A program made the position numbers and the translations under genes. From Candidatus Loosdrechtia aerotolerans (GTDB lineage Bacteria; Planctomycetota; Brocadiia; Brocadiales; Brocadiaceae): DNA of 64,000 bases. Within the stretch, counting starts at the first letter, position 1. Each line of letters starts with the position of its first letter. Below, piece after piece: positions 4,966 to 50,567 of this stretch. The notes below the pieces were generated by a model, which worked only from the letters and a program-made list of their open reading frames with translations, was not told where the DNA came from and made no database searches. The DNA lies in NCBI GenBank assembly GCA_021646405.1, contig SOER01000014.1, positions 1-64,000 on the forward strand. The letters are read 5' to 3'.

Positions 4966-6804
4966 TTATTTAACTGATATCGGAATACTTTGATTTCCTA
5001 TGAGTATATACGGCGTTGGTACCCGTGATATTACCTCATCGAAGAGCGGGCCGACTCCGCTTTGATTGGAAAAACTCATAATGGAGAGCACTGAAGACGG
5101 AAGCGAGGGAAACCCTTCACCTTTATACGTAAGCCCTTTCTTGGGCAACAAAATGCGCACCGTGAGATTATCATTTTGTTCCGTACTTTCTATAAAATGT
5201 AAGAGCTGGTCGAGATTGGTAGGGTGATACTTTCCGGCACATCTCCCCATATTCAAGGCCTGACTATAGGTAGCATCGCACGCAGTAACATTCAACGTAC
5301 TCCCGGGAAGGGTATCCTCAGGTATTTGCATGGTTACTGTCTGGTGAAAACATTCGCCGGTAAATGGCTTAAGGCATACATCTACCTGGAGAGTATCCCC
5401 CGGTTCCACTTGTTTTTTGTCTACCTTAACAGATTCAATATGTGCTGTTCTGAGGGTATCTAGTACCTTGATTTTTAAATCTATCTTATCCAAATGTACT
5501 TTCTGGAATTGGTTATTGGTAATCATAGATAACGGCTGGGCCATATGGGCAAGAGGACGCCACGATTGATCCAGCTCATAGAAAACGTTTTCTACGACAA
5601 CAGGCCTTTCATGTTCCTGAAGCTGAACTGAAAGTTTTACCTGCACGGACTTTTCCCCTAGCTTTCTTTCTGTAGATAATACGGCGCTTTGTGCAGCCAT
5701 GAGTACCAGGTTGGGCATTAAAACCTTGTCATCAACAATCTCAAAATCGTATGTTGTCTTCTGCAGGCCTTCGACTTCAATATGACATGGCACCATACGG
5801 GAATATTCACCAAGGATACCGGCAATGCCAGCCCTTCTATCCTGACTTATTCTACCAACAATCTCTGTCGGAGAGCCCATTTTTACTGAATTTGACTGAC
5901 TTGAAAGGATCGTGTAGATATAAGCAGTTGCCATAGGAAGATCTGTAACCCCTGTATGTAAGAACGGATGCCCAAACGCAAGAATCTTATCTCCTTCTAC
6001 ATATGTCACCGTTCCAACAACCGCCGCATTCAAATCTCCTTTAATCAGGATGGCCGCTACTGATGCCCCTGGTACAAGTTTTGTCTTATTCGGTACATCT
6101 GTTTGAAAAGAATACATTCCTCCCTGGACGGGATACAGGCCATAAGAACTAAAAAAGGGCTGCATGCTCTGTAAGGCTCCATTATCCAGACCTGATACCA
6201 CGAGAGGAGATTGAATTGGTGTAAGCTTCATCATATTTGCCATGCTTACCGAATCTAGACCGGTTATGTCCGATGGTGTTACGGAAGCTGTTTGCAAGCT
6301 TTTTCCTGAATCAGAAAAGGCTGGCAGATCCCAATCAAGAGCAATGGATGGAGTATAATCCCTTTGTTGAGGTACGTCATTCAGTAGAGTACTTCTCATC
6401 TCGTTAATCGGAATAACTCCAGCAATAGCTTCTTTCGTGAATGTCCATCCATAAGCAAGGGCACCTACCAGGCGATTGTCAATATAAATAGGGCTACCAC
6501 TCATACCAGCAACAACACCTGTTTTCTCTAAAGGTCCGCCGGATATCTTTATAAGGATCATATTACTCTTTGCCTCCCAGTTCTTCAGGACACCCAGCAC
6601 CTCAACATTGAAGATATTGATATGATCACCGAGAAAAACCGTTTTGCCGTACCCTTTCATGCCGGGCAAGACCTCGTCTATGTCCATAATTTTTTCCGTA
6701 ATTTTTTCAGCAGCAAAGAGTGATGTATTCCAGGATGGCGGGAAAGATGCAAAAACGTTGAAAAATGCAATTAAGCAGGGCAGATAAAATATTTTTAACT
6801 TCAT
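4966..6804 (-). CDS. SpoIVB-type (S55) peptidase domain protein
   Basis: After a signal peptide, the N-terminal third matches the SpoIVB/S55 serine peptidase family: 'EVLPGMKGYGKTVFLG' near residues 45-60, then VAGMSGSPI with the probable nucleophile Ser near residue 105. AFGHP, which carries a histidine, is further on near 273-277. It differs from sporulation SpoIVB by a long C-terminal part without PDZ, ending in repeated beta-rich segments. The ATG at 6804 is preferred over a TTG five codons earlier. Its partner is probably the propeller protein encoded directly downstream. The host is not a spore former by any other sign here, so the role is open. Confidence 0.75.
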   Translation of the reverse strand: MKLKIFYLPCLIAFFNVFASFPPSWNTSLFAAEKITEKIMDIDEVLPGMKGYGKTVFLGDHINIFNVEVLGVLKNWEAKSNMILIKISGGPLEKTGVVAGMSGSPIYIDNRLVGALAYGWTFTKEAIAGVIPINEMRSTLLNDVPQQRDYTPSIALDWDLPAFSDSGKSLQTASVTPSDITGLDSVSMANMMKLTPIQSPLVVSGLDNGALQSMQPFFSSYGLYPVQGGMYSFQTDVPNKTKLVPGASVAAILIKGDLNAAVVGTVTYVEGDKILAFGHPFLHTGVTDLPMATAYIYTILSSQSNSVKMGSPTEIVGRISQDRRAGIAGILGEYSRMVPCHIEVEGLQKTTYDFEIVDDKVLMPNLVLMAAQSAVLSTERKLGEKSVQVKLSVQLQEHERPVVVENVFYELDQSWRPLAHMAQPLSMITNNQFQKVHLDKIDLKIKVLDTLRTAHIESVKVDKKQVEPGDTLQVDVCLKPFTGECFHQTVTMQIPEDTLPGSTLNVTACDATYSQALNMGRCAGKYHPTNLDQLLHFIESTEQNDNLTVRILLPKKGLTYKGEGFPSLPSSVLSIMSFSNQSGVGPLFDEVISRVPTPYILIGNQSIPISVK

Positions 6805-7107
6805 ACTTATTAAAAACAAAAAGATAAGGGAAATAAAATATCTTTCACTTCAATTATGTTGAATGAAAACTGTAACAATTTGATTTTTTATTGTCAAGGC
6901 AGAAAAGATATTGAAATATCTTTTTTTACTACTTAGACTATTGCAAAATTCAAGAAAAGAATATTATTCGGAATTAAGGTGTGGAATTTTGCAGAAAAAT
7001 TCAGTATCTTATGATGTAAACTGGAAAGAGATACCCTGTACAGCAATTCGTAAATTCCTAATTCTGTTTTTCATTAAATTTAAATCAAATAGTTAAAAAA
7101 CGCGTGC

Positions 7108-7740
7108 ATGAAGACAAGAATTCTTAGCGTAAAAGATCAAGAACATTACTGGAACTATATAGAGGCGGCGGCGCAAGCATTGAGGGCAGGTAAACTGGTA
7201 GCATTCCCGACAGAAACAATCTATGGGTTAGGGGCAAACAGAGACGATGCAAAAGCGGTAGCTCGTATTTATGAAGTAAAACAGAGACCCGGAGAAAAGA
7301 GACTCACCCTCATGATCTCAGATTACGACGATCTGAAGAAATACGTTGATCATGTTTCTGCAGCGGCAGAAAAACTGATGGACGTTTTCTGGCCAGGGGC
7401 ATTGACAATTATTTTTCCTTTAAAAGACGGTTCAGATTTAAGTATCCGGTTTCCCGATAACCCTGTAGCGAGAGACTTAATTCGTACTGCAAAAGTTTCT
7501 GTTGTTACAACAAGTGCCAATATCTCCGGATATCCCCCTGCTACAGATGCACAGCAAGTATTTATGGATCTCGGAGGTAAGATCCCCATAATCCTTGATG
7601 GGGGATCAACACGATTTCGTTCTCCGTCTACTATAGTACTCGTGAAAGGCGATACTATTGAGATTGTTCGCCGTGGTATTATTTCAGAGACAAGTATACG
7701 AAGTTACCTTGAAAACAATTTCATAAAATGTAATATATGA
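7108..7740 (+). CDS. tsaC: L-threonylcarbamoyladenylate synthase (Sua5/YrdC/YciO)
   Basis: This enzyme makes threonylcarbamoyl-AMP from threonine, bicarbonate and ATP for t6A modification of ANN-decoding tRNAs. The KxR/SxN family marks are visible: 'FPTETIYGLGAN' near residues 32-43, KQRP near 58-61, TTSANISG near 134-141, and 'RSPSTIV' near 171-177. At 210 residues it is the short YrdC-type form without the Sua5 C-terminal domain. No strong ribosome site precedes the ATG. The stop is about 100 bases before rpiB. Confidence 0.92.
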   Translation: MKTRILSVKDQEHYWNYIEAAAQALRAGKLVAFPTETIYGLGANRDDAKAVARIYEVKQRPGEKRLTLMISDYDDLKKYVDHVSAAAEKLMDVFWPGALTIIFPLKDGSDLSIRFPDNPVARDLIRTAKVSVVTTSANISGYPPATDAQQVFMDLGGKIPIILDGGSTRFRSPSTIVLVKGDTIEIVRRGIISETSIRSYLENNFIKCNI

Positions 7741-7746
7741 GTATAC

Positions 7747-7775
7747 AAACACCCGGGGTGTTTTCCCCTTCGGGG
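7747..7775 (+). terminator. Hairpin pair between tsaC and rpiB
   Basis: AAACACC and GGTGTTT pair around a three-base loop, followed by TTTT and then a second small CCCC-TTCG-GGGG-type hairpin. It lies seven bases past the tsaC stop. It could be a weak intrinsic terminator or attenuator before rpiB. Confidence 0.4.
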
Positions 7776-7838
7776 TATTCCTGTATATCTCTTCCAGGAG
7801 TAAGGACTCTTAATTCAAAATATTTTCTAGAGAAAGAC

Positions 7839-8297
7839 ATGTACATGAAGATAGCATTGGCATCGGATCATAGAGGGTATGAGTTAAAAAAGCGCATAGC
7901 ATCCGTACTGACCCAAATGGGATACACGGTTATGGATTTCGGTACGATGAATGGAAATGAATCGGTAGATTATCCGGATTTTGGGATTAAGGCCGCCCGG
8001 GCTGTAAGCACAAACCAGTGCGACAGAGGCATTCTTATCTGCGGTACCGGAATAGGCATGTCCCTTATTGCCAATAAAGTAAAAGGTGTCCGGGCTGCTG
8101 TATGCCATAATCTTTACACAGTAGAAATGAGCAGAAGACACAATGATTCTAATATGTTGTGTATTGGTGCTGATATCGTGGACGAAGAGCTTTTAGAGCA
8201 AAAGATAAAGCTCTGGTTAGAGACACCTTTTGATGGTGGAAGGCATGCTCGCCGTGTAGAAAAGATTATGAATATTGAGAATGGAAGACATAGTTAG
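7839..8297 (+). CDS. rpiB: Ribose 5-phosphate isomerase B
   Basis: RpiB interconverts ribulose 5-phosphate and ribose 5-phosphate in the pentose phosphate pathway. Family marks are 'ASDHRGYELK', 'DYPDFG', 'GILICGTGIGMS' with the active-site Cys, and 'HNDSNMLCIGA'. The reading frame stays open for 34 codons upstream. The family begins at M.KIALASDH, and AGAGAAAG precedes the ATG at 7839, so I start there (152 residues). The 3' end overlaps the convergent lipoprotein gene by four bases. Confidence 0.93.
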   Translation: MYMKIALASDHRGYELKKRIASVLTQMGYTVMDFGTMNGNESVDYPDFGIKAARAVSTNQCDRGILICGTGIGMSLIANKVKGVRAAVCHNLYTVEMSRRHNDSNMLCIGADIVDEELLEQKIKLWLETPFDGGRHARRVEKIMNIENGRHS

Positions 8298-9145
8298 TGT
8301 AAATGAATTGTTTGTACCTTTTTTGATATTGTTGGTGTAAATACCTTTGGATCAAGCGAAATATTTACTGCGACCTCAGAAAAGGTTATGGTAAGGGTTG
8401 TTTCATAGCGCGGCCATCGAACATGAACCTCTTGCGGTATCCTGCATCCATCGTACGTTCCGTAGTCCGTAAATAAGGCTTGCAACCGGACAGAACCATC
8501 CGGATTAAATAAGTCATACCGGAATACCTCAGCATTTATCCTATCAAGTGATACATTTCCTTTCAGGTTTACAAACTTTGTATCCATATCGAGCAGGTGA
8601 ACTAACCAATAGGTAGGCCATGTTTCCAGGGCAAGCTTTTCTCCGATCAAGGTTTCTTTATAGTTAAAGAGGGTCGCTATATCCCCCGGAAAGATGTTGA
8701 TGCCAAGCGTCTCAATTCTATGAAAGGTATCAGATGAGCCGGTATACAGTTTCTTTTCCATGGGAATATATAACCAGAATTTATCACCGGTCGAAAGTAT
8801 ATCAAAGAGCGTTGCAGTAAACTTCGACCCTATTATTCGGAGATTCTCTGGTTTTTGATATACGATTAATCCTCTGCAACGAAGCGAACCTTTGATGTCC
8901 GGGGTATCAAGGACGATATCTGCATTCGCGCGAAATGAATTCAGGTTTGAATTCCTGGTAAGTAAAATCTGCCATATTTGTTGTAATGAAAGACTCTTTA
9001 CCTCCCCTTGAATATTCCCCAGAATAGGTGATGGGTCATCCCAAACCGATCTCTGTACAGCCGGGGCGCGATAGGTTGCACAACCAGATCCTAACAGTAT
9101 ACCAACAAGAGAAAGGCAGCAGGCTATATATTTATATTTCTTCAT
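8294..9145 (-). CDS. Outer-membrane-type lipoprotein with LolA-like fold
   Basis: From the ATG at 9145 the protein has a lipoprotein signal with GSGC, and the lipid Cys near residue 22. The body (about 283 residues) reads like the LolA/LolB or DUF4292 type. It is a beta-rich half-barrel with segments such as 'FRANADIVLDT', 'LRCRGLIVYQKPENLRI' and 'DKFWLYIP'. LolB-like proteins receive lipoproteins at the outer membrane, but the family call is by fold impression only. An upstream in-frame ATG at 9181 would add 12 residues and spoil the signal. Confidence 0.6.
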   Translation of the reverse strand: MKKYKYIACCLSLVGILLGSGCATYRAPAVQRSVWDDPSPILGNIQGEVKSLSLQQIWQILLTRNSNLNSFRANADIVLDTPDIKGSLRCRGLIVYQKPENLRIIGSKFTATLFDILSTGDKFWLYIPMEKKLYTGSSDTFHRIETLGINIFPGDIATLFNYKETLIGEKLALETWPTYWLVHLLDMDTKFVNLKGNVSLDRINAEVFRYDLFNPDGSVRLQALFTDYGTYDGCRIPQEVHVRWPRYETTLTITFSEVAVNISLDPKVFTPTISKKVQTIHLH

Positions 9146-9181
9146 GGATACAGGCCAAAAAGAGAGACCCTCTTTTTTCAT

Positions 9182-9569
9182 TCGACGGAGGATTACAGAG
9201 AGTTACTGCACGTTCCTGAAAGTCGTCGTACAAACCTTAAAAACGGTAGTAAAAGTTCTGGTGCATACATTGTAAGATATGCCTGCCCGTATTGCAAAGG
9301 AGAAAAGAAGTATTGCACCGGTTTGTAAAGGAAAAACCAGGTATAAGTGAATCTTTTAGAAATTTTACCTTCTAAGGTTGTGAAACAAACAGGGTTCTTT
9401 TTGTTCAAAAATAAAACATAAAAATATTGCCAAAAAAGTGCTTATTTTTGTAATATATGTCACATGTTTATGAGGAGCAAACCAAGGTAATTATTGAGAA
9501 TAATCTCGTGTAAAATTGTGTTATCAGTATATACCTTTGTCTTACTGAATCAGTATAGAGGAGTAAAAA
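9182..9569. other. Intergenic stretch with a possible gene remnant
   Basis: One + strand frame at about 9265-9326 reads GAYIVRYACPYCKGEKKYC before a stop. This looks like the end of a Cys-rich protein, but no start or full domain is present. It is otherwise AT-rich. A good ribosome site (GAGGAG) for the next gene lies at 9558-9563. Confidence 0.3.
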
Positions 9570-9845
9570 ATGTCAGATATAATTGAAAGACATGAGGAAC
9601 TTAGCAGAAGGGTTCTCAACCCAAACAAACCCATATCATCTGAACAAAAAGTATCCAGCCAAAGCAAGCTTGTACCTGCACCGTTCATCCGTGCATTCTC
9701 ACTCGGTGCAATCCTGGGATTCTCCCTTTTCATTCTCATTTGGATACTTGCTGGTTTTTCAAAAGCAGCACTTACCATACCATTGATAGGGGGGGCTTGC
9801 AGCACTGGTATTGAGGTGGTGCGCCAAAAGAATAAAAGTATTTAA
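9570..9845 (+). CDS. Small membrane protein of a GTPase gene cluster
   Basis: This protein has 91 residues. The first 40 are polar. Two hydrophobic segments follow near residues 42-62 and 67-80, and then a basic tail (RQKNKS). It probably anchors in the inner membrane with its N-terminus in the cytoplasm. GAGGAG precedes the ATG by seven bases. The GTPase gene begins 75 bases downstream, so it may be the membrane partner of that GTPase. I do not recognise the family. Confidence 0.6.
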   Translation: MSDIIERHEELSRRVLNPNKPISSEQKVSSQSKLVPAPFIRAFSLGAILGFSLFILIWILAGFSKAALTIPLIGGACSTGIEVVRQKNKSI

Positions 9846-9920
9846 GTTTTGCCATTTTGTGATACAATCAATACCAGAACTTCTCAATTTTTTCAAATGT
9901 TTTACGAAAGGTGATGAAAT

Positions 9921-10994
9921 ATGAAAGTAACCATGGTGGGAGTATCTGGTTCTGGAAAAACAGCATACATGTCTTCATTATATGAAGCATTGGGAGATGC
10001 AGGCCAGAATGATTCAGGTTTTTACATTGCCCCCCGTTCATTACAACAATTCGATAAAGCCATCCTCAGTGTTGGTGATTTTAGCAGGTTTTCACTTGCC
10101 GATAAATTCAAATGGCCTGATGGCACACAGCAAACTACGGTATGGCCATTTACTGTCTACTATAATTCAAAACCAATAACCTATTTCGATTGGATAGATT
10201 ATCGCGGAGGTATTTTAACGGAAATTACCGATGCTGCAGACTCAAGTGACATCTCGGATGCGACAAAATCTGAGATTCGGGGGCTCGCATCTCATATCGA
10301 ACTCAGTAATGCCGTTATCCTTGTTGCCGATGCCTTTGTCATGACATATTACCCGAATATTAAAGAAGCAAGACACCGGTCAGGGGCCAGGAGAATCCAT
10401 GAAATATTTACAACCTACAGCAGAATTTATCCCAACAGGAATTTAACATTTGTCATAATACTCACAAAAGCAGATACCGTTGACGCCCAATGGAAAAAAG
10501 ATAATTACGCTCCATTAATAGAAAGAGGACTTGAAGTATTTAATCAGATGGTAGCCTTATGTAAAGAAAATCCGGCCTGGGAGGGCAGCATCGTTCCTGT
10601 CTCTGCAGTAGGAGAGGGTAATGTAAAGAGGACTATTACCCCGACAGGTGATATAATGCATCCTTTCAAATCAGAAGATAAAATTGTGGGTTTCCCTGTA
10701 CCTATGAATGCAGAACATGTTCTGTTTTATTGTTTAGGCCAAACATTAAAACAAATGCGATCAGAGGCACATAAGAGTTTAAGGCAGCGGGAAGAAGAAC
10801 TCGCAGAGATTCTGAGAAAAGCAGGGTTAGTAAACAAAATTTGGTCTTTAATTACCCGCAAACCAGACGCAGAGAGCATTGCCAGGGCTATCCTCGAAGA
10901 AAAAAATAAGGATTATGAAGCTTTAAGCCAGTTTGAACTGTATATAGAACCGTTACTGACTAAATCACTGGAAAGGGTGAGACAAATCAAATGA
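9921..10994 (+). CDS. P-loop GTPase, double-GTPase-like
   Basis: This 357-residue protein carries a full G-domain. Walker A GVSGSGKT is at residues 7-14, DYRGG at 93-97 is the G3 site, TKAD at 182-185 is the G4 site, and VPVSAVGEG near 225-233 is the G5 region. The C-terminal third is a charged helical stretch. G4 points to GTP rather than ATP. Related stand-alone GTPases of bacterial conflict systems ('DO-GTPase' group) have this style of N-terminus. That link is an inference. It overlaps the next gene by four bases (ATGA), implying coupled translation. Confidence 0.75.
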   Translation: MKVTMVGVSGSGKTAYMSSLYEALGDAGQNDSGFYIAPRSLQQFDKAILSVGDFSRFSLADKFKWPDGTQQTTVWPFTVYYNSKPITYFDWIDYRGGILTEITDAADSSDISDATKSEIRGLASHIELSNAVILVADAFVMTYYPNIKEARHRSGARRIHEIFTTYSRIYPNRNLTFVIILTKADTVDAQWKKDNYAPLIERGLEVFNQMVALCKENPAWEGSIVPVSAVGEGNVKRTITPTGDIMHPFKSEDKIVGFPVPMNAEHVLFYCLGQTLKQMRSEAHKSLRQREEELAEILRKAGLVNKIWSLITRKPDAESIARAILEEKNKDYEALSQFELYIEPLLTKSLERVRQIK

Positions 10995-11935
10995 TATACC
11001 AGGAGCTCTTATACTCCCGTTCTTTATCCAAGGATTACCGGTGGATGCTTATCCCATCTAAAATTTCAGTAGAGACTCTCAAGACATTAAATCAACTTTA
11101 CAATATGTATGATAAGTACAAAAACACTTTTAACAAATCACCTGTTTCACCTCTCTACTGCTTAAATCATCCGGAAACAACGTCACTGGTAAACTGTTGT
11201 TTATCAGAACACAAAGACAAGGATGGCCGGGGCATTTACTGTTTACAGGGAATTAGTGTTGCACGAAAGTACAGGAGACATTTTTGGTTTATCCTTCCCT
11301 GGATACTGGACGGTTATAATAAACAAGGGGTGTTAAATACCTGGCAAAAAATAGATTTCTCTCATGCAGATGAGATAGTGCACCACGTATCGGAAGAGTG
11401 TTCCTTAAAACTTGACCAACTGGGCGAATCAATTGCAGAACTAACAAAAACAAGGGCGTCTGGGTCTGCCCGTGAGAGAGTACCGACGCATGAGTTAGTT
11501 TATATTCCATATAATAATGAAGGTTTAAAGGAATTATCTCATTTGATATCATCCTCATATCATAATTGTACGAATTTTGCCTTTGGTGCCACACCGGAAA
11601 TGATAAAGACCTTTGATTTTAAGGTCATCGCAAGGGTAGGAAACCGCTCCCCTGTTAAAACAAGCGTACAGGGAACAGGCACAACCAATACAATTTCTTC
11701 CCCTCCCTTTGAAAATCAACACGAAGAAGTGATAACCGAACCTTTAGAAGATCCTGTAGACCGTTTTGATCCGAGAAAGAAAAAAAGCGGGTTACATGAT
11801 AAGAACAACCTGTTGCGCAACAGGCATAAGCTATTAAGGGGAAACACTCCTTCGTGTCTGCTTGATCAGGTTTTACCCCGCATTCTGTCAATATTCAAGA
11901 TAGGCAAAAAACTGAGGCAGCGGTTCAAAGATTGA
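10991..11935 (+). CDS. Uncharacterised partner of the GTPase
   Basis: A 314-residue protein, translationally coupled to the GTPase. I recognise no family. The N-terminal 200 residues look globular, with a hydrophobic patch (FWFILPWILDGY near residues 96-107). A Pro/Thr/Ser-rich linker follows near 220-245, and a basic C-terminus rich in Arg and Lys ends in RQRFKD. There is no signal peptide. The coupling suggests a regulator or effector of the GTPase. Confidence 0.6.
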   Translation: MIYQELLYSRSLSKDYRWMLIPSKISVETLKTLNQLYNMYDKYKNTFNKSPVSPLYCLNHPETTSLVNCCLSEHKDKDGRGIYCLQGISVARKYRRHFWFILPWILDGYNKQGVLNTWQKIDFSHADEIVHHVSEECSLKLDQLGESIAELTKTRASGSARERVPTHELVYIPYNNEGLKELSHLISSSYHNCTNFAFGATPEMIKTFDFKVIARVGNRSPVKTSVQGTGTTNTISSPPFENQHEEVITEPLEDPVDRFDPRKKKSGLHDKNNLLRNRHKLLRGNTPSCLLDQVLPRILSIFKIGKKLRQRFKD

Positions 11936-40215: not shown

Positions 40216-42288
40216 ATGAACAAGCAGGTTTCAATAGCGTTCGTCTGCTGCATCCTTAGTCAGCCGTTATTCTATCCATATCAAAAGGCCTTCTCCCAGT
40301 CCGGAAAGAATACCCCAGGCCTTACCATAAACATGAATAACCACCCGGATCCTGCTTATATCACCTTTCAGGAAGTTTTTGGTCAATTTGACAATAACGC
40401 AGAACGGCTGTATCAGCGGTACGGCATCTTTGCCCTTGAATTCTTAAAGGAATATGGAATCGAAGGACTCGTTCTCCTGGAAAAATACGGTAAAGAAATG
40501 GCCGGTCTCTATCCGCTCCTCGATTTACGGGACATCCTCCGCCTCTACAAAAACCCCGAAAACATGACTGATAATCTTCAGATATTTTCCCGGAAAACCA
40601 TTGCCGGGTTTTATAAGACCTTTGGGGATGGTGGAATACAATACATCGCCAATGATCCCGAAAATTTTTTTCTCATCAATGGAGATAAGGACACAGGCAC
40701 TGAACTTATCAACCTTGCCAAAGAGAAGGGTGATATTGTATTCCCCCTCGCACGGAAACACGGGATTGCATTTGCAAAGCTCTATGACCGGGAGGTATTG
40801 AATATTGTCATAAAATTTCAGGAGGACGGGCTTCTCGCCTTAAAAGAATACGGAGAAAAAGCCAAACTCCTTTTCTCGCTCTTTATCAATGACGATACCT
40901 TTTACCATGTAATAAAAACATATGGACATAAACAAACGATTCCGGTCATCTACCTTTTCTATGAGAACAAAGATTTCAACAGCCAGGTTTACCAGTATCT
41001 GGTAACGACAAATGCCTATAAATGGCTTTCCGGCTGGTGGTGCGATGCGGATTTCTCTTCATCAGATGCCCAAAGCGATTCAGTCATACGGTATGAAAAT
41101 GCGAGAAGGGCAGTTGATCTCATCTTTGAACTGGGAAACGATTTCATTGACAGGTTTGAAATCCTTGATATCAACAATGTCAGGGAAGAGGCTGTCACTA
41201 CCATTACCAATAAACTCAGGAATTTCTTTTTGTCCGATATAGAGAAGGTAAGTCGCAAGAGAATCCGGCACGAAGACATCACCTTTCAGGATAAACTCTT
41301 TGCCGGATTGGACATCCTTGGATTTATTCCCGTCGGTGCTGGTGTATCAAAGGTAGCAAAACTTGCAGCAAAAGGGACACAGCTTGCCAAAACCACGAAA
41401 GGGTTTAAAGGCATCATTCATCTGAGCGATGATCTTGTTACACGCTATGGTGATGATGTTGTTCCGTTTGTGGCCAGGCATGGAGACGAAGGCATCAGGG
41501 TATTGAAAGCAACCGATGGCAAGATTCTTACGTTATCACAAAAGTATGGAGATGTTATGATTCGTTATATGAAAAAATATGGCACAGGTGCAGGAACTGT
41601 GATTGAAAAATACGGTGAAGAACTATTACAGCTTGCACAGCAGTACGGCGACGATGTTATTAAATACACTATGCTCTATGGCGATGATGGATTCAGGATC
41701 ATTCAGAAGCATGGTAGGGATATCGTCCTCTTGAGTTCTGTCTATGGAGACGATGTTATCAAACTGTCGGCCCTTCATGGAGATGATATTATTAAATACG
41801 TATCCAAATACGGCTCAAACGGTATCTATGTTATCAAGAAATATGGAAACGATGTACTATCCCTGGCAAAGATCCACGGCGATGATGTTATCAGGTATGT
41901 CAGCATATACGGCGATGACGGACTCAAGCTAGCGAGTAAAGGGAAAATAGGATTACGGATAATGCAGTTCATGCCGATGGGAGCCTTCTCAAAAAGTATA
42001 AAACTTATCAAATACGGTTTGATTGCAGCCGTCCTTTTTACCATTGTTACCAATCCGCTTGCATTTCTCATAGGGCTGGTAAGTGCCCTCTCGTGGCTGT
42101 TAAATATGAATCCTTTGATCGTAATAGTCCTGTTAGGTCTCGTCATATCTTTTTTTCTGATACGGTTCCTGAGAAAATATAAAATCGTTCTCAAGCCTCT
42201 ATCCCTGCTTTTACGCATAATCCGGAGTTCCGAGAAGACAAAAAAACACCAGGAACCACGGAGAAACAGAAAGACAGAACAGACATGA
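40216..42288 (+). CDS. Large YGDD-repeat membrane or secreted protein
   Basis: About 690 residues from ATG at 40216. A signal-like N-terminus ends near residue 28. Residues 40-260 already hold 'YG..ALEFLKEYGIEGLVLLEKYG'-type units. Residues 405-580 are a near-continuous array of about 13-residue units of the form (Y/H)GDD(V/I)I(K/R)x5-6, for instance 'QYGDDVIKYTMLYGDDGFRI'. Two or three membrane helices follow near 600-650, then a basic tail. I know no family like this. The array may be a solenoid or a metal-binding acidic surface. Confidence 0.75.
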   Translation: MNKQVSIAFVCCILSQPLFYPYQKAFSQSGKNTPGLTINMNNHPDPAYITFQEVFGQFDNNAERLYQRYGIFALEFLKEYGIEGLVLLEKYGKEMAGLYPLLDLRDILRLYKNPENMTDNLQIFSRKTIAGFYKTFGDGGIQYIANDPENFFLINGDKDTGTELINLAKEKGDIVFPLARKHGIAFAKLYDREVLNIVIKFQEDGLLALKEYGEKAKLLFSLFINDDTFYHVIKTYGHKQTIPVIYLFYENKDFNSQVYQYLVTTNAYKWLSGWWCDADFSSSDAQSDSVIRYENARRAVDLIFELGNDFIDRFEILDINNVREEAVTTITNKLRNFFLSDIEKVSRKRIRHEDITFQDKLFAGLDILGFIPVGAGVSKVAKLAAKGTQLAKTTKGFKGIIHLSDDLVTRYGDDVVPFVARHGDEGIRVLKATDGKILTLSQKYGDVMIRYMKKYGTGAGTVIEKYGEELLQLAQQYGDDVIKYTMLYGDDGFRIIQKHGRDIVLLSSVYGDDVIKLSALHGDDIIKYVSKYGSNGIYVIKKYGNDVLSLAKIHGDDVIRYVSIYGDDGLKLASKGKIGLRIMQFMPMGAFSKSIKLIKYGLIAAVLFTIVTNPLAFLIGLVSALSWLLNMNPLIVIVLLGLVISFFLIRFLRKYKIVLKPLSLLLRIIRSSEKTKKHQEPRRNRKTEQT

Positions 42289-42379: not shown

Positions 42380-43183
42380 ATGTTACAGTCAAGGTTTTTC
42401 GCATTCGTACTTGTGGTCATTCTCTTTGCCGGCTGTGCAACAGTACCGATAACCGGGAGAAGACAGCTCTCTTTCGTACCGCAGTCACAGCTTTTTACTC
42501 TCAGTGAGGAAGGTTATCGCCAGTTGATATCCGAATCAAAACTTTCGGACGATCCTCAAAAAATGGAGATGGTGGTAACCGCAGGTAAGAAAATAGCGCA
42601 GGCAGCAGAGGAATTTATGCGCGAGAATGATATGGAGGAAGAGATAAAAAATTATGAGTGGGAATTTAATCTTATTGAAGACGGCGCAACAGTAAATGCC
42701 TTCTGTATGCCCGGGGGGAAGATAGCCGTATATACAGGCATCCTTCCTGTTACTCAGGACGAAACAGGACTTGCCGTCGTCCTGGGTCATGAAGTTGCGC
42801 ATGCAATAGCAAACCATGGAGGAGAGAGAATGAGCCATCTTTTAATGGTGCAATTAGGCGCAACCGGCTTATCGGTTGCGGCCAGTCAACATTCAGAACA
42901 GACGAAGCAGATATTACTGCAGGCCTATGGGGCAGGTACCAACGTAGGATTCATTTTACCGTACAGCCGCAAACACGAACTCGAGGCCGACCATATTGGC
43001 CTCATCCTCATGGCACGGGCAGGTTACAACCCGAAAAAGGCTATCCCGTTCTGGCGGAGGATGGATACCATGGGAGGAGAGCGTCCGCCCGAATTCCTTT
43101 CCACCCATCCGGAACCGGCAAAGAGGATTGAGGACATTAAGAAGGCACTTCCTGCAGCCATGAAGTATTACAAAAAACAGTAG
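42380..43183 (+). CDS. M48-family metalloprotease lipoprotein
   Basis: 267 residues. A lipobox LFAGC puts the lipid Cys near residue 19. VLGHEVAHAIANHGGE near residues 134-149 is the zinc site, and 'HELEADHIGLILMARAGY' gives the third ligand. It resembles LoiP/YcaL/BepA-like periplasmic proteases without TPR repeats, which act in outer-membrane protein quality control. GGAGG lies before the ATG. Confidence 0.92.
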   Translation: MLQSRFFAFVLVVILFAGCATVPITGRRQLSFVPQSQLFTLSEEGYRQLISESKLSDDPQKMEMVVTAGKKIAQAAEEFMRENDMEEEIKNYEWEFNLIEDGATVNAFCMPGGKIAVYTGILPVTQDETGLAVVLGHEVAHAIANHGGERMSHLLMVQLGATGLSVAASQHSEQTKQILLQAYGAGTNVGFILPYSRKHELEADHIGLILMARAGYNPKKAIPFWRRMDTMGGERPPEFLSTHPEPAKRIEDIKKALPAAMKYYKKQ

Positions 43184-44218: not shown

Positions 44219-45934
44219 ATGCTTTCAGCAATAAAAGATATTGGTTACCTGGTTTCTAAAAAAGCCTGGTCAAGTGAAAGACCTATAGAGGGAAAGGTTT
44301 TATCGGTTATTATTGACGCGGTTAATTCATCATTTTCTGGTATAGACATTGAAGATTTTGATACTAAAAAGATAGATCTATATCTCTTTAGTTCCGGTTC
44401 TTCAAAAGGCAACGTACCTTCTCCTTTTGCTCCTATTACAGAACCTGAAAAAACATATAAAAAGATTGAAAAGTGGATGAAAGATTGTGAAAAAATAACC
44501 GGTATTGAAAATGATACTAGAGAATTTTTAAGTAGGATTAATAAAGTATTAGCAGAAAATAAAGATTTAATTATGAATTTACTGAAATACAAGATTGAAG
44601 GACTACCGAAAAAGAAAGGCGAAGGGCGATATTTTACATTAGGATTTGAGGGAAACAAAAGATATCTGGGTGAATATGAAATTTTTAAACGAGGCGTTGA
44701 AGACTTTGCGGCCGCAAAGTTAAAAAAATCAGCCGGTAAAAACCAGGTATGTTCTGTTTGTGGATTAGTGAGAGAAGAAGTATCAGGCAAAGTTGATGTT
44801 TTTAAGTTTTATACAATTGATAAACCTGGTTTTATCTCAGGTGGATTTAAAGAAATCAGTGCATGGAAAAATTTCCCTGTCTGTGTAGAATGTAAAGCGC
44901 TGTTGGAAAGTGGTAAAAAATACATTGATGTAAAACTTAATTTCAAATTTTATGGGTTGAATTATTACTTAACTCCTAGATTGCTGGTAGGTGGTGAAGA
45001 TATCCTGGAAGACATCCTTAATATCCTATCGGATACCACAAAGGCAATTGATTTAAAAGAACGTACAAAAAAGAGAATTACCAATGATGAAAACGAAATA
45101 TTGGAATTCCTTTCTGGAATAAAAGACGTTCTCACCCTTAATTTTCTCTTTTTAAGAAAAGAACAGAGCGCAGAGAGGATTTTACTATTGATCGAAGACG
45201 TATTTCCATCAAGAATTCGAAGAATCTTTAAGGCTAAGGATTGTGTCGATGCAATTTTTGAGGATGAATTCAACTTTGGCAAGATAAGGAATTTTTATTC
45301 TAAGTCTGATGAAGGTAAGAGGGAAAGTGACCTGAATAAATATTTTCTTGAAATAGTTGATAGTATTTTCAAGGAAAGAAAACTCGACTTCGCCTTTCTT
45401 TTAAAATTCTTTATGGCAGTCATTCGCAGAGAATTTATCAATGAAGGCTATTTTGGCTTTAGGATTAAAGATGCCCTCATGAATATAATGTTTTTTGAGA
45501 ATCTTGGTCTCATAACCTTTGAGGAGGCAAGTATGGTTGAAAGCATGTTCAACGGTATATTTACTCAATATGGAAAATCATTCGGAAACCCTGCAAAACG
45601 TGGGGTGTTTTTATTAGGTGCGCTGACCCAGCTACTTCTCAATAAACAGTGGAATGAAAGGAATGCAAGGCCTTTTATGAAAAAACTGAAAGGTTTGAAG
45701 ATGGACGAAAAAGATATAAGGGCACTCCTGCCAGAAATTCAAAACAAACTTGAAGAATATGATTCTTTTGACAAGGGCAAAAGGCTAATTGCGTCCGAGG
45801 CTTCAAAATATCTGCTTGAGGCTGGAGAAGGATGGAAGATGCCGGTCGATGAAATAAACTTCTACTTTTCTTGTGGAATGAATCTTGTTGAGAACGTTGC
45901 AAATATTGTTTATCCAAAAGAAAATATTGGCTGA
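44219..45934 (+). CDS. cas8b: Type I-B Cascade large subunit Cas8b (Csh1)
   Basis: 571 residues, TM1802/Csh1 family. The Cas8b zinc-ribbon is visible as CSVCGL near residues 178-183, then 'PVCVECKAL' near 220-228. Cas8b recognises the PAM and helps recruit Cas3 in the Cascade complex. AGGGAGA stands four bases before the ATG. It starts only one base after the decayed PIN gene. cas7 follows after 13 bases. It is the first gene of the cas operon, and a promoter may lie in the PIN remnant. Confidence 0.88.
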   Translation: MLSAIKDIGYLVSKKAWSSERPIEGKVLSVIIDAVNSSFSGIDIEDFDTKKIDLYLFSSGSSKGNVPSPFAPITEPEKTYKKIEKWMKDCEKITGIENDTREFLSRINKVLAENKDLIMNLLKYKIEGLPKKKGEGRYFTLGFEGNKRYLGEYEIFKRGVEDFAAAKLKKSAGKNQVCSVCGLVREEVSGKVDVFKFYTIDKPGFISGGFKEISAWKNFPVCVECKALLESGKKYIDVKLNFKFYGLNYYLTPRLLVGGEDILEDILNILSDTTKAIDLKERTKKRITNDENEILEFLSGIKDVLTLNFLFLRKEQSAERILLLIEDVFPSRIRRIFKAKDCVDAIFEDEFNFGKIRNFYSKSDEGKRESDLNKYFLEIVDSIFKERKLDFAFLLKFFMAVIRREFINEGYFGFRIKDALMNIMFFENLGLITFEEASMVESMFNGIFTQYGKSFGNPAKRGVFLLGALTQLLLNKQWNERNARPFMKKLKGLKMDEKDIRALLPEIQNKLEEYDSFDKGKRLIASEASKYLLEAGEGWKMPVDEINFYFSCGMNLVENVANIVYPKENIG

Positions 45935-45947
45935 AGGAGGAATACGA

Positions 45948-46862
45948 ATGTCGGAATTAGTAAAAAATCGTCAGGAAATCTTGTTCCTTTATGATGTTAC
46001 AAATGCAAACCCTAATGGTGATCCTGTGGATGAAAACAAACCGAGGATAGATGAAGAAACGGGAATAAACATTGTCACCGATGTCCGTTTAAAAAGGACA
46101 ATAAGGGATTATCTTTCTGAATACAAGAAAAAAGATGTCTTTATTCGTGAGATACGAGATAACAATGGTAATTTAAAAACAAAAGAAGATAGATTAAAGG
46201 ATTTTAAAAATAATCCTGAAAACGTCTTAAATGCTTGCATTGATATTCGATTGTTTGGTGCAACAACAGCCGTTGAAAATCAGACAATGGCTTTAACAGG
46301 ACCGGTTCAGTTTAAATACGGGAAATCTCTTCACAAGGTCGACGTTACTTACGTAAAGGGAACAACTGTTATGCCATCCGCTGCAGATAGAAAACAAGGA
46401 ACTTTCACAGAACGGTATGTTCTACCCTATTCATTAATAACCTTCTATGGTATAGTTAATGAAAATGCAGCAATAACACAAAATATTAAATTAACTGATG
46501 AGGATATTTCTTTCATGCTTGAAGGTATCTGGAATGGAACGAAAAATCTTATATCTGGTTCCAAATTTGGGCAGATGCCAAGACTTCTTGTACAAGTAAT
46601 CTATAAAGAAGGAAATTTTTATCTGGGAGAGTTGGATAAACGCATATCCTTAAAGTCGGAAAAAATTGAGGAAAAAATACGGGATATTTCAGAAGTGAAA
46701 GTTGATATAACAAATCTCGTTAAAGCATTTATTAATAATAAAAACAAGATTGAAAAAATACAACTCAAGGTAGATGAAAGGATTTCTTTTACCAAGGATG
46801 GGTCAGACGTTTCTTTAAAAGATACATTAACTGGCTTAACAGTTGAAAACTTCATTTTCTAA
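45948..46862 (+). CDS. cas7: Type I-B Cascade backbone Cas7 (Csh2)
   Basis: 304 residues from ATG at 45948, with GAAGGAGG upstream. Csh2 family marks are 'FLYDVTNANPNGDPVDENKPR' near the N-terminus, 'TDVRLKRTIRDYL', and 'DIRLFGATTAVENQT' near 100-115. Cas7 copies coat the crRNA spacer. The next gene is cmr1 rather than the expected cas5, which marks the entry point of the type III-B cassette. Confidence 0.92.
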   Translation: MSELVKNRQEILFLYDVTNANPNGDPVDENKPRIDEETGINIVTDVRLKRTIRDYLSEYKKKDVFIREIRDNNGNLKTKEDRLKDFKNNPENVLNACIDIRLFGATTAVENQTMALTGPVQFKYGKSLHKVDVTYVKGTTVMPSAADRKQGTFTERYVLPYSLITFYGIVNENAAITQNIKLTDEDISFMLEGIWNGTKNLISGSKFGQMPRLLVQVIYKEGNFYLGELDKRISLKSEKIEEKIRDISEVKVDITNLVKAFINNKNKIEKIQLKVDERISFTKDGSDVSLKDTLTGLTVENFIF

Positions 46863-46938
46863 TTTTTTAAAAATTCCTATGCAAAATGTAGAAATCACAA
46901 ATTGTGATAACCAATAAAGAGAGAATGGGATCATAAAA

Positions 46939-47856
46939 ATGAATTCAGTAACTTTTGAATGTGAAATCATAACGCCGATGTTTCTGGCAGGGGCCGATGG
47001 AAAAACCCCGGAACTCCGCCCTCCTTCTATAAAAGGGATTATGCGGTTCTGGTGGCGGGCAATTAAGGGAGAAAATAATCCAGAAACTCTAAGAATTGAA
47101 GATATTTTACTATTTGGAGGTAGTGATGAAAAGATTGGAAGATCAAAATGTTCTTTAAGAATTTTAAACAAAACGTTCAATAAGGGCTTTATCAATCAAA
47201 AACCCCTTCCACATCATACTGGTGATAGTAAATGTACTTTTTTACCGTCTTGTAAATCGAAAAATAATAATAATAAATGTAATAAAGGATTTGAGATCCC
47301 TTCAATAGCTAATCACAGTCAATTCAAAATAGAATTGAAATCTTTAAATATGGTGCAGCAAAATTATTTCTCTAATATCTTACAATTATCTCTTATCTTA
47401 GGTGGTCTGGGGAAAAGAAGTCGCAGAGGTTTTGGAAGTGTTCACTGTAAAAGCTGGAACTTCACAAACAATAATGAATTAGTTCAATTTATACTTAGTA
47501 AACTTAACGCAATACAAAATGATTTTGATGTCAAAGATATGGAAATTTATAGAAATTCTTCCTCTGGAGCAAATTATCCATTTATAAAGGAAATTGCTCT
47601 AGGTAAGCCAGAAAAAGATCCATTTGATTTATTAAAAAAAATCGGACAGGCATCTCATCTATTTAATGACCCATCTCTTGGCTATGCAGGGAAATTCAAT
47701 AATAACACAATCAGAATGGCTTCCCCTATTTATGTAACCATTGCTAAAATTGGAAATGAATTTATACCCATTATTACAACTTTAAATTCAGCTTTTCCTC
47801 CATCCTATCCTTTTTACGATTTACAAAAACAGCAACAATTTAGAGGTTCATTATGA
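46939..47856 (+). CDS. cmr1: Type III-B RAMP protein Cmr1
   Basis: 305 residues. Cmr1 caps the 3' end of the Cmr backbone near the target RNA 5' end. 'FECEIITPMFLAGADGKTPELRPPSIKGIMRFWWRA' carries the family start. GLGKRSRRGFGSV near 160-172 is the RAMP Gly-rich loop. An Asn-rich, Cys-bearing loop (CKSKNNNNKCNKG) near residue 110 is unusual low-complexity sequence. The stop overlaps the cmr2 start by four bases. Confidence 0.88.
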   Translation: MNSVTFECEIITPMFLAGADGKTPELRPPSIKGIMRFWWRAIKGENNPETLRIEDILLFGGSDEKIGRSKCSLRILNKTFNKGFINQKPLPHHTGDSKCTFLPSCKSKNNNNKCNKGFEIPSIANHSQFKIELKSLNMVQQNYFSNILQLSLILGGLGKRSRRGFGSVHCKSWNFTNNNELVQFILSKLNAIQNDFDVKDMEIYRNSSSGANYPFIKEIALGKPEKDPFDLLKKIGQASHLFNDPSLGYAGKFNNNTIRMASPIYVTIAKIGNEFIPIITTLNSAFPPSYPFYDLQKQQQFRGSL

Positions 47857-50567
47857 CTAATGAGATTTTCTCAAAAAAACTTGCAGTTTTTTTGCACGAC
47901 CCAATAGACAAACCCTTTATCCTCATGCAAGGCGAAAGCCACGAGCAGAGAGCAAGAGAGCTTGCGGATAAATTAGGCGCTGTGCTTGAAAAAGAACCCG
48001 CGTCGGATCATATCGCTTCTGCAATGGAAAGGACATTTTTACCAAAGGGCGCCTCACAAAACAAAGACCTTCAAATAAAATTCCTGGAAAATCCCTGTAT
48101 CAAGCATCCTCTTTCAGGCAATGATTTTGAAGGTGTCATGAGATGGAAGGATTTATCAAAGGACACATTTAAGCAAATAGCCAATAAGACCTTTCTGGAA
48201 ATAGCGACAAGGTCATTTAAAGACGATAAGGAGCGGTTTCTTTATCTCTGGCGTAATCTTAATCCGTTGTTGAAGAAAAATTCAGACGAAAAAACCAAAA
48301 TATTGTGGTCGCTTGCACCGGCAGATACTAGGATTCCTGATCACTCTATCCTTGAGCATTTGAAAATCTCTTCTGCATGTTACAATGCCACGTATGCAAA
48401 CGAAATGCTCTTAAACAATTGCTCACTGTTCCTATTTGCTATTGGGCCGATACAATCTTTTATTGCGCAGGCGAGGAAGACCCAGGACCTGTACTGGAGC
48501 AGTTTTATCCTGTCATATCTCAATTGGAAGGCAATTGAATATATCTCCGATAGGTACGGTCCAGATGGTATAATATTTCCGGATATTCACAGCCAACCAT
48601 TTGCCGACTGGTGGCTTGAGAAAAAAGGAATTTATGTTGAAGGCAGTAATTCCAACAAGGTTAGGATTCCTACTATTCCAAATAGGTTTTTATCTATTCT
48701 TCCCGTAAACGACAAAGAAACATTATGTAAGCTCGGGAATGAAATAGGAAACAATATCAAAAATGAATTAACCAATATTGCGACATCAGTAATCAGCAAC
48801 TTAAATATTTCTAAACCTTATGGTTTTGATAAACAAATAGAGAATTTTCTGCAAATTTATTGGACGTTTATTCCATGGCTTCGGGATAAAAACAACAAGC
48901 AAGATTGGGAGGATACCATAGAGGGAACAAGATCATATTTTACCGAAGATGTCCTAAAAAGGCATAATGATCTCCTTACATTTGTAAAGAATAGCGGTGA
49001 ATACAGACCCAATATAGGCAACGCCTATCCTCTTTTGTTTTCCTTTGCCGAAAAGGTTTTAGGGGCAAGGAAAAATATGAGGATTTTCGAGCAGTTAGGG
49101 GAAGGGGATGGAGAAACGGGGAGGAAATGCGCATTGTGCGGTGAAAGAAATATTCTTTTTTATAAGAAAAAAGATAAAGATGCCAAACTCTTTAATAGTG
49201 ATGTCGTTATCTTTGTCGCAGGTGAAAAACAAATTTCACCAAAATATCTACAGAATGGCGAGGGTCTTTGCGGGGTTTGTTTTACGAAAAGATGCGCAGA
49301 AAAATATTTCAAGGGCGTATTTGGAGATATGGGAAACAATGAATTCCCATCTACCGCTAAAATTGCCCAGATTAAGTTTTTACAAAAGATAAATCCGGAA
49401 GAATTGAAGAAATTTAAGGGTCTTTTCGGTAATTCCTTTGATGAGCAACTGTTATATGAAGAGAATCTTACGGAAAAATATTTTAAAAAATACGGCTTAA
49501 AGCTGGAAATATTTAATAAAGCAAAAGAACTTCAGAAGAAGATTTTAGAATGTGCAAAGGCGAACAAGGTAAAACAGACAAGATATTACGCTGCAATTAT
49601 GCTCGATGGCGATTCGATGGGAAAGTGGCTATCCGGAGATTTGGCTCCTACGTTTGAAAAGGTTTACCATCCCGACGTGTGGAAAAATCTGCCTGATAAC
49701 TTTAAAGAAAAATTAAAAGACAAACAAAGACCAATGACGCCAGCCTTGCATGCAGCCATAAGTGCTGCCTTGCGGGATTATTCATTGAAATTTATAGTGA
49801 ACATCGTTGAAGAAAAATACGACGGCGAGGTTGTCTATGCAGGAGGCGATGATGTCCTCGCCTTTGTAAATCTAAAAGACCTTTTTGATATCATGATAAG
49901 ACTCAGAGCGGCATTTTCCGGTCATATTGATAAAGATATGAAAACTGATTTTACAAAGGAGGTGTCAGGATTTGTAGAATCAGATGATGAAATCGTCCTT
50001 ACAATGGGACCTCTTGCTACAGCATCTATGGGTGTTTGTATCGCCCACTATAAAATGCCCTTGCGGGTAGTAGTACAAACTGCAAGAGAGATGGAGCAGA
50101 AGGCAAAAGGAATCGAAGGCAAAAATGCCTTTGCAATCGCCGTCATGAAGCGTTCAGGTGAAACAGTAGAAACAATATCCAAATGGTTTGATAAACAGCA
50201 GCCTGTCGGGGAGGGAATTATTTCTGTACTACAAGATATTGTAGAAGAACTAATAAAAGGAAAACAGAAACAAGACGAAGGTTTTTCGGATACATTTGTT
50301 TGCAAGCTAAGAGAAGAATTTAACAGATTATGTGGAGGTGCTAAGGCAAAGATTGACGATCAAATAGTAAAAACAGAAATCAAAAGATTACTTTTGCGTT
50401 CCTGTCAGATGAAAAATAGAACAGATGAAGATAAAAAGAGAAAAAAACAAAGAGTCGAGAAACTGGCAAGCGATCTCTATCAGGTATTTCTTGAAGCGGA
50501 AAATATAAAAAATTTCATCTCATTTCTCGAAACAGCCGTTTTTCTTGCAAGGGAGGTCTCCGTATGA
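47853..50567 (+). CDS. cmr2: Type III-B Cas10/Cmr2, cyclic oligoadenylate synthase
   Basis: 904 residues. 'LAVFLHDPIDKPFIL' gives a remnant or intact HD-type start (H15-D16). A zinc site follows: CALCGERN and 'GLCGVCFTKRC' at about 428-475. The palm cyclase motif GGDD lies near residues 664-667, so synthesis of cyclic oligoadenylates from ATP is expected on target RNA binding. GAGG precedes the ATG, which overlaps the cmr1 stop. The CARF protein two genes downstream is the natural receptor. Confidence 0.9.
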   Translation: MTNEIFSKKLAVFLHDPIDKPFILMQGESHEQRARELADKLGAVLEKEPASDHIASAMERTFLPKGASQNKDLQIKFLENPCIKHPLSGNDFEGVMRWKDLSKDTFKQIANKTFLEIATRSFKDDKERFLYLWRNLNPLLKKNSDEKTKILWSLAPADTRIPDHSILEHLKISSACYNATYANEMLLNNCSLFLFAIGPIQSFIAQARKTQDLYWSSFILSYLNWKAIEYISDRYGPDGIIFPDIHSQPFADWWLEKKGIYVEGSNSNKVRIPTIPNRFLSILPVNDKETLCKLGNEIGNNIKNELTNIATSVISNLNISKPYGFDKQIENFLQIYWTFIPWLRDKNNKQDWEDTIEGTRSYFTEDVLKRHNDLLTFVKNSGEYRPNIGNAYPLLFSFAEKVLGARKNMRIFEQLGEGDGETGRKCALCGERNILFYKKKDKDAKLFNSDVVIFVAGEKQISPKYLQNGEGLCGVCFTKRCAEKYFKGVFGDMGNNEFPSTAKIAQIKFLQKINPEELKKFKGLFGNSFDEQLLYEENLTEKYFKKYGLKLEIFNKAKELQKKILECAKANKVKQTRYYAAIMLDGDSMGKWLSGDLAPTFEKVYHPDVWKNLPDNFKEKLKDKQRPMTPALHAAISAALRDYSLKFIVNIVEEKYDGEVVYAGGDDVLAFVNLKDLFDIMIRLRAAFSGHIDKDMKTDFTKEVSGFVESDDEIVLTMGPLATASMGVCIAHYKMPLRVVVQTAREMEQKAKGIEGKNAFAIAVMKRSGETVETISKWFDKQQPVGEGIISVLQDIVEELIKGKQKQDEGFSDTFVCKLREEFNRLCGGAKAKIDDQIVKTEIKRLLLRSCQMKNRTDEDKKRKKQRVEKLASDLYQVFLEAENIKNFISFLETAVFLAREVSV

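Follow-up and report, generated by a model that had tools for sequence, protein, structure and literature searches.

The 64,000-nucleotide stretch of DNA analysed here (the window) carries on its + strand, at 40216..42288, a gene for a 690-residue protein (from ATG at 40216 to stop at 42288) built around fifteen consecutive repeats of exactly 11 residues. We read the product as an exported scaffold with an alpha-solenoid fold and a C-terminal membrane anchor, putting the chances of this whole reading at about even, with most of our confidence resting on fold and location rather than on the process that the scaffold would serve. The repeats, their conservation and the gene order are observations, fold and topology are predictions, and the scaffold role and its client process are inferences. 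The window comes from an anammox planctomycete whose genome encodes hydrazine synthase alpha.

An indel-free array of 11-residue units

When the protein was compared with itself, self-similarity peaked at lags of 11, 22, 33 and 44 residues, the best lag scoring 1.67, whereas none of 500 shuffles exceeded -0.22. The [Y/H/F]G starts fall at residues 411, 422, 444, 455, 466, 477, 488, 499, 510, 521, 532, 543, 554 and 565, and with a degenerate third unit (TDGKILTLSQK, residues 433-443) they make up an indel-free array of fifteen units at residues 411-575 (41446..41940, + strand), also picked out by a unit profile, with the consensus Y-G-D-D-V-I-K-L-A-x-K. The original prediction had counted more than ten YGDD/HGDD-like units over residues 405-580, which the array bears out far above shuffles, but had put the repeat length at about 13 residues, which both the lags and the [Y/H/F]G positions correct to 11. 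Its weaker units in the N-terminal half were likewise recovered as degenerate 11-residue units at residues 46-260 (40351..40995, + strand): the unit profile gives four above-threshold matches at residues 80-190 (shuffle mean 0.16, maximum 3), four in-phase units can be picked out by eye at residues 58-101, and a profile of the N-terminal part finds an orthologue's repeat block (E=4e-5).

The number of repeat units is fixed across 20 orthologues, with a lone one-residue gap in one of them. Orthologous units are 74% identical, versus 34% among units within one protein, so the array is old, with each position held separately. The best-conserved stretches of the protein are nevertheless residues 166-260 and 291-375 (82-83% mean identity) rather than the repeats. 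The second of these (83% identity; 41086-41340 in the window), which ends in the hydrophobic turn GLDILGFIPVG, forms the highly conserved core of a non-repetitive region at residues 261-400 (40996..41415, + strand). In a phylum-wide planctomycete sample, relatives of residues 46-400 were found only within the protein's own family.

Predicted fold, acidic pair and membrane topology

In the AlphaFold2 model of residues 396-592, built from an alignment of three natural sequences, the block is an all-helical solenoid (mean pLDDT 87.9, pTM 0.75), and these values are to be read with the caution that AlphaFold2 may over-predict solenoids or be over-confident for repeats (PMC11795689). The full-length model has similar repeat helices and is poor elsewhere, with residues 46-110 helical at a pLDDT of about 80 and the remainder of the N-terminal half at low values. 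The modelled helices stop at the Y/H-G step and resume at D-D; some of them span two units, in which case position 5 is often Gly, and the resulting long-short groupings fit a superperiod of 33-44 residues. A Foldseek search of the PDB, solved ankyrin, TPR, HEAT and Sel1 members included, returned no fold match at E<=0.001, the best by TM-score being a TAL effector (TMq 0.33, E 1.1, not significant). On the strength of the model, the repeat block is probably an alpha-solenoid, and the solenoid first proposed from the regular spacing of the units thus gains support as a predicted structure.

Sequence searches gave no curated counterpart. The repeat protein matched nothing in Pfam, NCBIfam or PADLOC, the ankyrin, TPR, HEAT and Sel1 models of the first two included, and nothing in the PDB by sequence; a profile gave only DARPin matches, too weak (E 0.0009 at best) for homology to be accepted. 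A single short match in PHROGs, to a family of unknown function, was also weak (E=1e-4, 31 residues), and a literature search for 11-residue or hendecad repeats, whether in planctomycetes or in bacterial membranes, found nothing. No significant match to a known repeat family of defined role therefore emerged from Pfam, NCBIfam or the PDB fold search, and the earlier statement that no family is like it holds for the curated libraries (Pfam, NCBIfam, PADLOC and PDB) but not for uncurated proteins, among which relatives occur across Planctomycetota.

The acidic pairs had also been suggested to bind metal. As in a Ca2+-type repeat, the spaced D-D pairs would chelate ions and stiffen the array, and both their regular spacing and the resemblance of the GD motifs to Ca-binding repeats speak for this. 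However, no other part of the motif is conserved as poorly as the pair: among 299 units scored, both acidic positions are kept in 59%, compared with 92% for Gly-2 and 93% for the aromatic residue, and S, N, T, K, G and A also occur at position 3. In sister families (see below) Pro, Ala or Glu often stands in for the first Asp, at position 3, with Gly-Pro at the equivalent point. The EF-hand, dockerin and RTX models of Pfam found no match in the repeat protein, and in the predicted helical fold the Asp residues sit at helix N-termini. An Asp, Asn, Ser, Thr or Pro followed by Asp or Glu directly after Gly is the pattern of a helix N-cap with a capping box, and because Pro, Ala or Glu replace the first Asp in sister families, we read the pair as helix N-cap and N1 rather than as ligand. 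From sequence and model, the D-D pair looks like helix capping, and metal binding is very improbable.

Long amphipathic hendecad helices on membranes, of which alpha-synuclein is an example, also have an 11-residue period, and the repeats might instead form such an 11/3 helix lying on or bending a membrane, possibly that of the anammoxosome. The period is exactly 11, hydrophobic residues at positions 1, 5, 8 and 12 would form a single stripe on a continuous helix, D3 and K7 stand at salt-bridge spacing, and some of the modelled helices do continue over two units. Yet Gly-2, together with Pro-3 in relatives, would interrupt a continuous helix, the predicted helices are separate in a model with a pTM of 0.75, and three anammox genera do without the repeat gene, all of which makes a membrane-active helix improbable to our minds.

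In the alpha-solenoid that we prefer, the 11-residue units would be short helices, with the aromatic residue and Gly closing one and D/N/S/P-D/E opening the next, and with V/I/L/A at unit positions 5, 6, 8 and 9 forming the core. These helices, usually grouped as a long one accompanied by one or two short ones, would stack into a rigid periplasmic superhelix that could offer other envelope proteins a docking surface of fixed length. Protein binding is the usual role of solenoid scaffolds (reviewed in PMC11514114), and we consider it moderately likely that this protein is a protein-binding scaffold.

The superhelix would reach the periplasm by way of a signal peptide that moves the chain through the cytoplasmic membrane. 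The predicted signal peptide covers residues 1-27 (40216..40296, + strand), with cleavage between AFS and Q; a hydrophobic h-region and A/V-x-S/T/A before Q/E recur in most orthologues, despite an identity of only 33% in this segment. Near the C-terminus follow hydrophobic segment 1 (residues 600-630, 42013..42105), identified by hydropathy and containing an N-P-L-A-F-L-I-G-L motif common to a sister family in profile alignment, hydrophobic segment 2 (residues 632-654, 42109..42177), a probable transmembrane helix by hydropathy, and a poorly conserved basic tail (residues 655-690, 42178..42285), all on the + strand. The export and C-terminal anchoring of the original prediction are plausible on these features, while the topology stands as a prediction: the hydrophobic segments would be the membrane anchor, with the basic tail probably inside. 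Since a cleaved signal peptide and a cytoplasmic basic tail need an odd number of crossings, one hydrophobic segment may be re-entrant, most likely the first, which contains N-P. Taken together, these features make a membrane-anchored, periplasmic protein probable.

Distribution and gene neighbourhood

The GTDB family comprises 33 genomes, and 23 of them, from 7 of its 11 genera, have an orthologue, with a full-length identity of 60-69%. Searching genome contigs with the full-length protein gave two loci, labelled Ca. Brocadia and Planctomycetota, and none was found on plasmids or phages; other families of the order had no match. A search for paralogues, as originally advised, found no second copy in the protein's own genome, where the gene is single-copy, and the survey of planctomycetes proposed alongside it confined the long protein to one family, only shorter relatives being spread across the phylum. 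Within the family, the gene is missing from three anammox genera (three near-complete genomes of g7, as well as g9 and g10). Hydrazine synthase alpha was found in g7 (2 of 3 genomes), g9 and g10, all without the repeat gene, which places the gene outside the core anammox machinery: the protein is dispensable for anammox itself, though carried by most anammox genera.

Upstream sequence was usable in 21 genomes. In 11 of them, spread over six genera (g1, g2, g3, g5, g6 and g11), a glycosyltransferase gene of ArnT/PMT type clearly precedes the repeat gene on its strand, at a distance of 0 to about 1,050 bp; a twelfth case, G028, is a weak match (24%). Genomes of g1 and g6 have only about 2-5 PMT_2 genes each, so the linkage is not due to crowding. 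In G015 the ArnT/PMT-type gene directly abuts the repeat gene, and at three loci (L130, L043 and L044, from g2, g5 and g11) two or three different genes of this type precede it. The linkage has been lost in most g3 genomes, and in the host genome the ArnT_A orthologue is found on a different contig, the place upstream of the repeat gene being taken by an unrelated gene, CapA-like. ArnT_A is also kept in genomes lacking the repeat gene (G008, G014, G019-G021 and G024) and is therefore independent of it, and the phylogenetic profiles of the two show no dependence.

Downstream, starting about 95 bp after the repeat gene, lies a gene for an M48 metallopeptidase lipoprotein (42380..43183, + strand), whose protease domain is BepA/LoiP-like and without TPRs by Pfam and NCBIfam. 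Eight genomes from 3 genera have an M48 gene within about 2.2 kb of the repeat gene, in varying orientation. BepA itself holds a TPR solenoid and an M48 domain in a single chain; papers on BepA include PMC7950410 and PMC8423444. The repeat protein and the neighbouring protease could together be an unfused equivalent of BepA, the former serving as chaperone or substrate-binding subunit, and the 267-residue M48 protein, which matches BepA at E=1e-25, is indeed too short for a TPR half, and the genes are adjacent in g6 as well as here. That match is, however, far below the family cut-off, in g3 the M48 gene runs the opposite way and other genes intervene, and in the remaining genera it is not nearby, so that we think a protease subunit unlikely.

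We return to the protein-binding scaffold, for which the ArnT/PMT-type genes upstream in six genera and the M48 quality-control protease nearby in three make cell-envelope (glyco)protein biogenesis the likeliest client process, with the superhelix docking or organising its components. One account of Kuenenia (PMC5088730) describes its S-layer as heavily O-glycosylated, so glycosylation machinery of this sort exists in these bacteria. The link to envelope glycosylation or biogenesis is tentative.

A CRISPR-associated-looking operon, recognized by eye, begins about 2 kb downstream of the repeat gene (44219-50564 in the window, with a Cas7-like gene at 45885). A similar-looking locus follows the orthologue in G016, where one BLAST match joins the Cas7-like proteins at 28% identity and the rest was judged by eye.

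Relatives and comparison with known systems

The uncurated relatives include a sister family, A2, first met as repeat fragments in other planctomycetes. Its members are planctomycete proteins of about 260-315 residues that begin with a signal peptide, carry YGDD/HGDD/GP units and an F-L-x-x-P-x-x-F/Y-x-x-G segment, and have a hydrophobic helix and a basic tail at the C-terminus; for example, WP_044148304.1 from plasmid pSINAC03 of Singulisphaera acidiphila is annotated as 'hypothetical protein'. None of the relatives tested against Pfam matched. In hhalign, the anammox profile aligned with A2 at a probability of 97.5 (E=7e-12) with the C-terminal hydrophobic motif inside the alignment, and judged by sequence the anammox protein would belong with A2, sharing its repeats and this motif.

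A4, an unannotated membrane protein, is present in 14 of 392 genomes of the phylum, and in 12 of these 14 it is adjacent to A2 (at least 12 genomes). Modules of A4 and a short YGDD-repeat protein lie at L027:4835-7076, L030:3783-5896, L032:3734-5422, L033:4743-6810, L052:1480-3384 and L054:1477-3064. Five elements combine the A2-A4 pair with a coupling protein of the VirD4/TraG kind and ParB: two in G134, one in G324, pSINAC03 and one IMG/VR contig. Such ParB-VirD4/TraG cassettes span L095 (pSINAC03) 5824-11074, L094:1106-5840, L033:2045-6810, L030:3783-8660 and L106:9400-13000. The annotation of the conjugative plasmid pSINAC03 lists VirD4, relaxase, ParA and ParB as transfer and partition genes and names no VirB set. 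A fusion of A4 into the N-terminal half of the anammox protein was considered and ruled out (hhalign probability 0.1).

These pairs raise another origin for the anammox protein, as a chromosomal offshoot of a conjugation-associated envelope module, in which the short sister proteins and A4 would act in or around the conjugation apparatus and the anammox lineage would have kept the scaffold and lost the partner. The recurrent adjacency of A2 and A4, the five cassettes and the profile link between the two repeat families agree with it, but that link's scores may be inflated by repeats, A4 had no match in the anammox genomes searched, and most A2-A4 pairs have no VirD4 within the flanks searched (up to about 9 kb per side); we regard such an origin as unlikely. 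A broader proposal, which we would call possible but doubtful, is that the 11-residue YG-D/P-D/E unit defines an undescribed short-helix class of alpha-solenoid in Planctomycetota, exported and membrane-anchored, which anammox bacteria would use as an envelope scaffold of fixed length and which, paired with a dedicated membrane protein, would be a new part of planctomycete conjugative elements. The anammox protein itself contributes a repeat family that is in no curated library and whose unit is very short and free of indels, a good test of the minimal size of a helical solenoid unit; it also marks a probable envelope component of most anammox genera that anammox itself can do without, and leads to a membrane module of two unannotated genes that turns up repeatedly in conjugation cassettes of planctomycetes.

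Closest to the anammox protein is A2, which has the same signal peptide, 11-residue-like units, hydrophobic segment, C-terminal helix and basic tail but is shorter (about 260-315 versus 690 residues), with less regular repeats, no counterpart of the N-terminal 400 residues and A4 as an adjacent partner. Small HGPE proteins (in G176, G204, G050 and G162) share the 11-residue spacing, exact in the one measured, and an H-G-P/A-E motif; they differ in being about 80-150 residues long and cytosolic-looking, with no evident signal peptide or membrane segment and with Pro in place of Asp. Unannotated HGPE proteins of planctomycete family f24, small and without an export signal, lie at L026:4817-5101, L025:5129-5400, L023:820-1130 and L028:4892-5340. 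The likeness to BepA is that of a periplasmic solenoid beside an M48 protease, here by adjacency and predicted fold only, whereas the two are separate chains, the repeat protein has no TPRs and the linkage is not conserved. Alpha-solenoids built of 33-34-residue repeats (ankyrin/DARPin, TAL effector and mTERF) resemble the anammox array in the superperiod of 33 found in much of it, but its basic unit is 11 residues, without a Pfam match and with a fold match that is not significant. Finally, unlike slippage-prone surface repeats, the anammox array is fixed in number and position-specific.
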